A stretch of 42,773 bases of DNA from a virus. Below the pieces are notes generated by a model. It saw only the letters and a program-made list of their open reading frames with translations, had not been told where the DNA came from and did no database searches. Each line of letters starts with the position of its first letter. Position 1 is the stretch's first letter. The stretch is from positions 1-42,773 of the IMG/VR virus record IMGVR_UViG_3300050821_000980; one strand, 5' to 3'. Made by a program: the position numbers and the translations under genes. Below are positions 42,520 through 42,773 of the stretch, one piece after another.

Positions 42520-42773
42520 TTATTTCGCTTCGCTCATAATCTCAATGAGCTTGTCTGCCTGTGCATTCCGAAATGTTTTACGGGCGGCGGCGGCGTAGGC
42601 GGCGGCGGCGGCGTCGGCGGCGTAGGCGTCGGCGGCGTAGGCGGCGGCGGCGGCGGCGGCGTAGGCGTAGGCGGCGGCGGCGGCGGCGGCGGCGGCGTAG
42701 GCGTAGGCGGCGGCGGCGGCGGCGGCGGCGGCGGCGTAGGCGTCGTTTCGTAATTTCAGCCAGTCGATTCTCT
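42520..42773 (-). CDS. Ala/Tyr-tract phage protein, C-terminal part (continues at base 509-1)
   Basis: This is the downstream half of the gene that starts at 509. In the joined product a 53-residue tract (43 Ala, 8 Tyr, 2 Asp) follows the N-terminal domain, with pairs such as Y-A-Y and Y-AA-D-A-Y, and the protein ends RKTFRNAQADKLIEIMSEAK. The stop is TAA at 42522-42520. The tract is likely a continuous helix with Tyr along it; the C-terminal AD-K-L-I-E is seen at the same place in related phage proteins as I remember them. Function unknown. Confidence 0.85.
   Translation of the reverse strand, partial: RIDWLKLRNDAYAAAAAAAAAAYAYAAAAAAAAAYAYAAAAAAAYAADAYAADAAAAAYAAAARKTFRNAQADKLIEIMSEAK
42583..42741 (-). 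repeat. GCC/TAC triplet microsatellite in a coding frame
   Basis: Read leftward this is a run of GCC (Ala) codons with single TAC (Tyr) and two GAC (Asp) codons, all in one frame. Alanine is encoded only by GCC, so it is a DNA-level repeat, not just a biased protein. Because the unit is three bases, gain or loss of units changes length without breaking the frame. It also gives the assembly its break point. Confidence 0.9.
42710..42773. repeat. Terminal direct repeat, right copy
   Basis: Identical to 1-64; see the left copy. The non-repetitive part (from 42742, gtcgtttcg onward) matches base for base, so the overlap is not only low-complexity sequence. Confidence 0.9.

Follow-up and report, generated by a model that had tools for sequence, protein, structure and literature searches.

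The locus examined here raises the question of why a phage gene should carry a long coding tract composed almost entirely of alanine and tyrosine, with a single codon used for each residue. The window, that is, the whole stretch of DNA analysed (IMG/VR virus record IMGVR_UViG_3300050821_000980; 42,773 nucleotides), is a phage contig of circular type whose ends overlap exactly over 64 bases. Bases 1–64 are an exact duplicate of 42710–42773 (terminal redundancy), which is the sole suffix/prefix overlap between 11 and 400 bases. The gene is on the minus strand, running from 509 down to 65 and then, across the circular join, from 42773 down to 42520, and its product of 232 amino acids is organised as follows.

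42520–42773, minus strand: 3' part of the gene (tract, C-terminal helix and stop), continuing across the join at 65–509
1–509, minus strand: 5' part of the gene, with the ATG at 509; bases 1–64 are the terminal redundancy
165–509, minus strand: conserved N-terminal domain, residues 1–115 (from alignments and the AlphaFold2 model of the relative L009)
33–164, minus strand: helical linker, residues 116–159 (KSIQDVADAYQ...DWLKLRND), with helices 122–139 and 148–161 in the L009 model
42583–42741, minus strand: codon-pure Ala/Tyr/Asp tract, residues 160–212 (43 GCC, 8 TAC, 2 GAC)
42520–42582, minus strand: conserved C-terminal helix, residues 213–232 (RKTFRNAQADKLIEIMSEAK), and stop (from motif conservation and the L009 model)

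The tract consists of 53 residues, 43 Ala (all GCC), 8 Tyr (all TAC) and 2 Asp (both GAC); these counts, the exclusive use of GCC for Ala and the 232-residue gene spanning the circular join had been given exactly right in the initial annotation. Across 12 long ORFs of the same genome the Ala codons are used evenly (GCT 142, GCC 140, GCG 132, and GCA 128), and no further run of four or more GCC/TAC/GAC codons is present elsewhere in the window. Chance is therefore excluded as the origin of the codon purity. The pure Ala runs of the window copy are 10, 9, and 7 residues long; across the family the longest run has a median of 4. A PHROGs scan of 10 window ORFs identified a large terminase gene along with genes for an internal virion protein, a replication initiation protein, an Erf-like annealing protein and endonuclease VII; the tract gene sits amid those for replication and recombination. 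Elsewhere in the window, positions 2414–2441 hold four perfect copies of TACTCTG.

Relatives were sought with the N-terminal 158 residues, the tract being excluded from the query to avoid composition bias. Among the viral contigs of IMG/VR this search returned 109 relatives. The best 80, retained for analysis, define a widespread, unnamed, phage-borne protein family. Its members share a conserved N-terminal domain (HxnCxxxCxnH), a linker helix, an Ala/aromatic tract, which is variable, and a conserved C-terminal helix. The window protein has a small, helical N-terminal domain showing the H, CxxxC, H pattern with the IFEGL/GADLS core, and a codon-homogeneous Ala tract followed by the xxADKLIELL helix. 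Residues H26, C44, C48, and H55 of the N-terminal domain are candidate metal ligands. The C-terminal helix motif was found in 49 of the 54 complete members using a strict pattern, and some of the exceptions are near-matches.

The tract had been proposed to lie behind the conserved GKGCAVGCT domain in every relative. This holds for nearly all of them, but L019, alone among the complete members, has no tract, while L034 has a Leu-Ala-Asp/Tyr version; the variant tract (L034:3451–3690) has a strict three-codon period, Leu/Arg-Ala-Asp/Tyr (CTC/CGC GCC GAT/TAT). The further expectation that the tract would be of the Ala/Tyr type throughout fails, as the GCG-type tracts carry Trp, Ser, Glu, and Arg, and in two Rhodopila copies the tract position is taken by an Ala-rich segment of mixed codons that is not repetitive and is followed by the same C-terminal helix. 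Distant plasmid relatives from Novosphingobium and Sphingomonas are without the tract, both Cys residues and the second His.

Named homologues with the architecture of the window protein occur in the cultured Xanthomonas phages phiXaf18, KPhi1, BsXeu269p/3, and XapPhi1–6; in those Xanthomonas phage records that are annotated, the gene is located shortly downstream of a VirE-family gene. A homologue on a Roseomonas mucosa plasmid lies in a series of small genes, with a restriction alleviation gene of the Lar family nearby. The N-terminal domain profile matched only the seed genomes among 385 genomes of one class and 296 genomes of one phylum, so the family appears to be mainly phage-borne and rare in cellular genomes. 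No conserved gene neighbour was detected in the 3-kb flanks of the family loci. A different repeat protein (NSSVEARDNSSVEAW...) is encoded shortly downstream of the gene in three contigs (L070:3761–5105, L074:3979–5101, and L076:4042–4507), and pentapeptide-repeat-like proteins are encoded downstream in three others (L042, with ANLSGANL, L053, and L069). The Cys-less, tract-less plasmid relatives (L095:2995–3882 and L096:2986–3870) are both preceded by two TldD-related peptidase genes and by trxA, the Novosphingobium gene lying between trxA and trxB and the Sphingomonas gene after trxA; an M3 peptidase gene follows, plus trxB in Novosphingobium. This setting is possibly a redox/peptide-processing operon with an undescribed component.

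Comparison of the tracts revealed a codon purity that is specific to each lineage. Most members use one Ala codon per tract and all four in the N-terminal domain, and the codon sets are, according to lineage, GCC/TAC/GAC, GCT/TAT/GAT, or GCG/TCG/TGG/GAG. The commonest third base accounts for a mean share of 0.81 of the codons in the tract vs 0.36 in the N-terminal domain. In the pooled GCC tracts, TAC (146) and GAC (116) outnumber the synonymous Ala codons GCA, GCG, and GCT together (21), and the helix breakers are rare (Pro CCC 9, Gly GGC 6). The pooled GCT tracts contain TAT (139) and GAT (98), and the pooled GCG tracts TCG (86), GAG (45), and TGG (37). A Tyr codon with G in the third position is impossible, TAG being a stop, and in the GCG tracts Trp replaces Tyr. 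The ratio of Tyr-rich to Trp-rich tracts is 20:2 for GCC, 18:1 for GCT, and 2:7 for GCG (Fisher p 4e-5, with phylogeny left out of account). At least 14 changes of codon type are required on the N-terminal domain tree, which is poorly resolved, and the starred branches alone force only 1–3 per type; the codon type has likely switched repeatedly between lineages, the number of switches not being firm. Median GC of the flanking sequence is 0.42 for GCT, 0.54 for GCC, and 0.52 for GCG tracts, and accounts for the codon choice only partly.

The residues other than Ala recur every 3.5–3.8 positions (z 11–14) and for the charged residues the peak is at 3.6 (z 6.6), the z-values being relative to shuffles which leave out slippage and thus overstating independence. 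Clustering of the aromatic residues on one helical face reaches significance only in the pooled tracts (combined p 2e-4); taken singly, 8 of 51 tracts fall below 0.05. The aromatic surface envisaged in the initial annotation is thus retained as a stripe averaged over the family and not as a property of the window copy, because the spacing of the aromatics in the latter has no helical-face pattern (p 0.47).

The results from structure prediction are consistent with a helical tract. The AlphaFold2 model of the full-length relative L009 has a pLDDT of 82 and a pTM of 0.80; the blocks of the N-terminal domain are mostly at pLDDT 85–98, with a dip at residues 21–40, the last residues, forming the C-terminal helix, reach 97–98, and the tract is mostly at 40–57. 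For the Trp-type relative L080 (pLDDT 80) a helical hairpin, 153–197/202–245, is predicted. The tract is therefore modelled as a helical hairpin, with weaker confidence than the N-terminal domain and the C-terminal helix, in keeping with the helical bundle suggested earlier. The membrane element suggested alongside it is unlikely, and a membrane helix was rejected on hydropathy, since no more than 3 of 65 tracts have a 19-residue value exceeding 1.6. Foldseek found no significant match in the PDB for either model, the PDB sequence search gave only weak and mostly low-complexity matches, and Pfam and NCBIfam contain no real match for the window protein or its family. The best predicted-structure match, BFVD A0A6J5QCR4 from an uncultured Caudovirales phage (Foldseek E 1.6e-9; 33% identity), is uncharacterized and has no function to add.

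In-frame length change, anticipated from the triplet unit, was found between near-identical genomes. The contig L082 (IMGVR_UViG_3300020583_000126) equals the window over 13,982 bp at 100% identity apart from the tract, in which the only differences, A9 to A7 and A7 to A5, are located. The complete genes L020 and L021 have 0 mismatches in the first 390 nt and tracts of about 97 and 67 residues in which the residue order also differs, a difference that may stem not from slippage but from recombination with another phage. Both pairs represent length alleles in the window protein family, subject to assembly error. The BsXeu269p/3 tract has one Ala more than that of KPhi1. Turnover is not fast everywhere, because phiXaf18 and KPhi1, two independent isolates, have identical tracts at a DNA identity of 98.1%.

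Taken as a whole, these observations are probably best explained by a length-adjustable helical arm which is kept by selection on the protein and whose triplets are renewed in frame through slippage or recombination. We infer both the selection for the arm at the protein level and slippage as its mechanism. Selection would preserve the alpha-helical character of the arm along with its aromatic and charged side chains, while slippage or unequal recombination would copy the triplet repeat in frame faster than point mutation mixes its codons. Arm length and decoration could then change quickly, with the reading frame into the C-terminal helix kept.

A neutral triplet microsatellite, expanding in a permissive linker in which poly-Ala is harmless, would likewise vary in length between near-identical genomes, and the window copy, with its long pure Ala runs and aperiodic aromatics, looks much like one. 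However, Tyr and Trp dominate the tracts although they are two changes away from an Ala codon, Pro and Gly are nearly absent, and the switch from Tyr to Trp tracks the third base. The C-terminal helix and the frame are conserved, and the two Rhodopila copies have kept the Ala-rich segment with mixed codons. A neutral origin is therefore unlikely.

Short-read collapse might have produced the repeat length and perhaps even its pure composition. The window ends exactly in the repeat, and its end overlap begins inside it; 22 of the 24 relatives cut by a contig end stop in their tract or at its edge, and even the cultured XapPhi1 and 2 records end in theirs. The exact tract length is consequently assembly-dependent in metagenomic contigs, and phage assemblies may often be fragmented because of this tract. 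Its existence is safe. In the window it is independent of the circular join, since the whole tract, with 37 unique bases beyond the first long run, is contiguous within 42520–42773, and many complete contigs cross the tract in frame into the conserved C-terminus. Together with the identity of the phiXaf18 and KPhi1 tracts, this makes an artefact very improbable. We give equally little credence to a function of the repeat as DNA or RNA (an origin, packaging or recombination site), for which the strength of the repeats and the nearby replication genes might speak, given that members use four different Ala codons while keeping the protein pattern and that the Rhodopila copies retain the segment without the repeat. 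Similarly improbable is targeted hypermutation, akin to a diversity-generating retroelement, writing NNC or NNT codons into the tract: it would account for a fixed third base with variable first and second bases, but no second GCC/TAC/GAC run able to serve as a template exists in the window, the starting codon is GCN and not AAY, tract lengths vary, and few of the 16 possible codons are in use.

The tract is not confined to this family. A second search, in which viral contigs were queried with the tract DNA, yielded 153 tract-bearing reading frames, 63 of which have the N-terminal domain of the window family; the remainder includes fragments or chance frames. One cluster of 27 sequences combines the tract with Imm5_like regions, DUF7666 regions or both, or with neighbours of these; another, of 18 sequences, combines it with a CMEAV..AGE..SD..P.C region which has no Pfam match. 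Ala/aromatic tracts after other N-terminal regions were observed among L104–L252 (e.g. L225, L230, L203, L169, L199, and L153). In L143 and L144 a tract of similar kind is placed before, not after, the conserved region, which in L144 is a DUF6745 domain.

In the Imm5_like (PF21805)/Imm5 (PF14423) and DUF7666 (PF24703) proteins a similar tract directly follows an alpha-helical segment (RPRxAIEAAxxW..), and a C-terminal helix is sometimes present, as in the window family. Between the non-tract parts of the Imm5_like and DUF7666 proteins and the window family, however, hhalign detects no homology (probability no higher than 0.2%; Imm5_like 0.1%), and the idea that Imm5_like, the CMEAV..AGE..SD domain and the GKGCAVGCT domain are remotely homologous was rejected on the same comparison of non-tract parts. 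The Imm5_like/Imm5 Pfam profiles match neither the window protein (E up to 1) nor any of the 47 aligned members (0.1). Weak PHROGs matches of the window protein, to two families without an assigned function, phrog_3416 (E 6.6e-5; 22 of 47 members) and phrog_18326 (E 0.03; 12 of 47), begin near residue 104–112 and cover the Ala-rich half only. The N-terminal domain and linker alone had no match in PHROGs, and phrog_3416, which aligns with residues 112–227 and so not with the full length, corresponds to the second family, that of the CMEAV type (L214; E 2.9e-33). Because the tract also occurs with unrelated domains, it is modular rather than specific to the GKGCAVGCT domain, as either a shared or a convergent module.

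Literature searches produced no description of such Ala/aromatic tracts in phages. Tandem-repeat contingency loci, or 'tuning knobs', are comparable in having a short intragenic repeat whose copy number differs between near-identical genomes. The window tract differs from them in its one-codon unit, in keeping the frame so that length changes rather than on/off expression, and in being third-base-pure with mixed residues. An on/off phase-variable locus was rejected because the unit is one codon; out-of-frame tracts were noticed only in L026 and in L139, a member of the DUF7666/Imm5_like cluster, where a frameshift inside the tract, natural or technical, is followed by the expected continuation in another frame.

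As for function, the early-gene position and the occurrence of the tract in immunity-type proteins are hints that a host-takeover or anti-defence protein might use the arm as an adjustable surface for binding, which we offer as a tentative guess. A broader conjecture, conceivable though rather doubtful, is that several unrelated phage families share a self-renewing helical arm whose codon-pure repeats have re-evolved with different codons, the code dictating Tyr (NNC/NNT) or Trp (NNG). Such an arm would bind host factors while varying rapidly in length and surface, and would be a slippage-based counterpart to retroelement-driven diversification.

If the arm is as proposed, phages would vary a protein surface cheaply by means of an in-frame triplet repeat under protein-level selection, and the frequent breaks of viral contigs at these genes would be accounted for. 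The third-base rule by which Tyr gives way to Trp offers a clean natural test of selection for amino-acid character against DNA repetition. The tract also provides an entry point to phage families without an assigned function, namely Imm5_like, DUF7666, DUF6745, and the GKGCAVGCT family.
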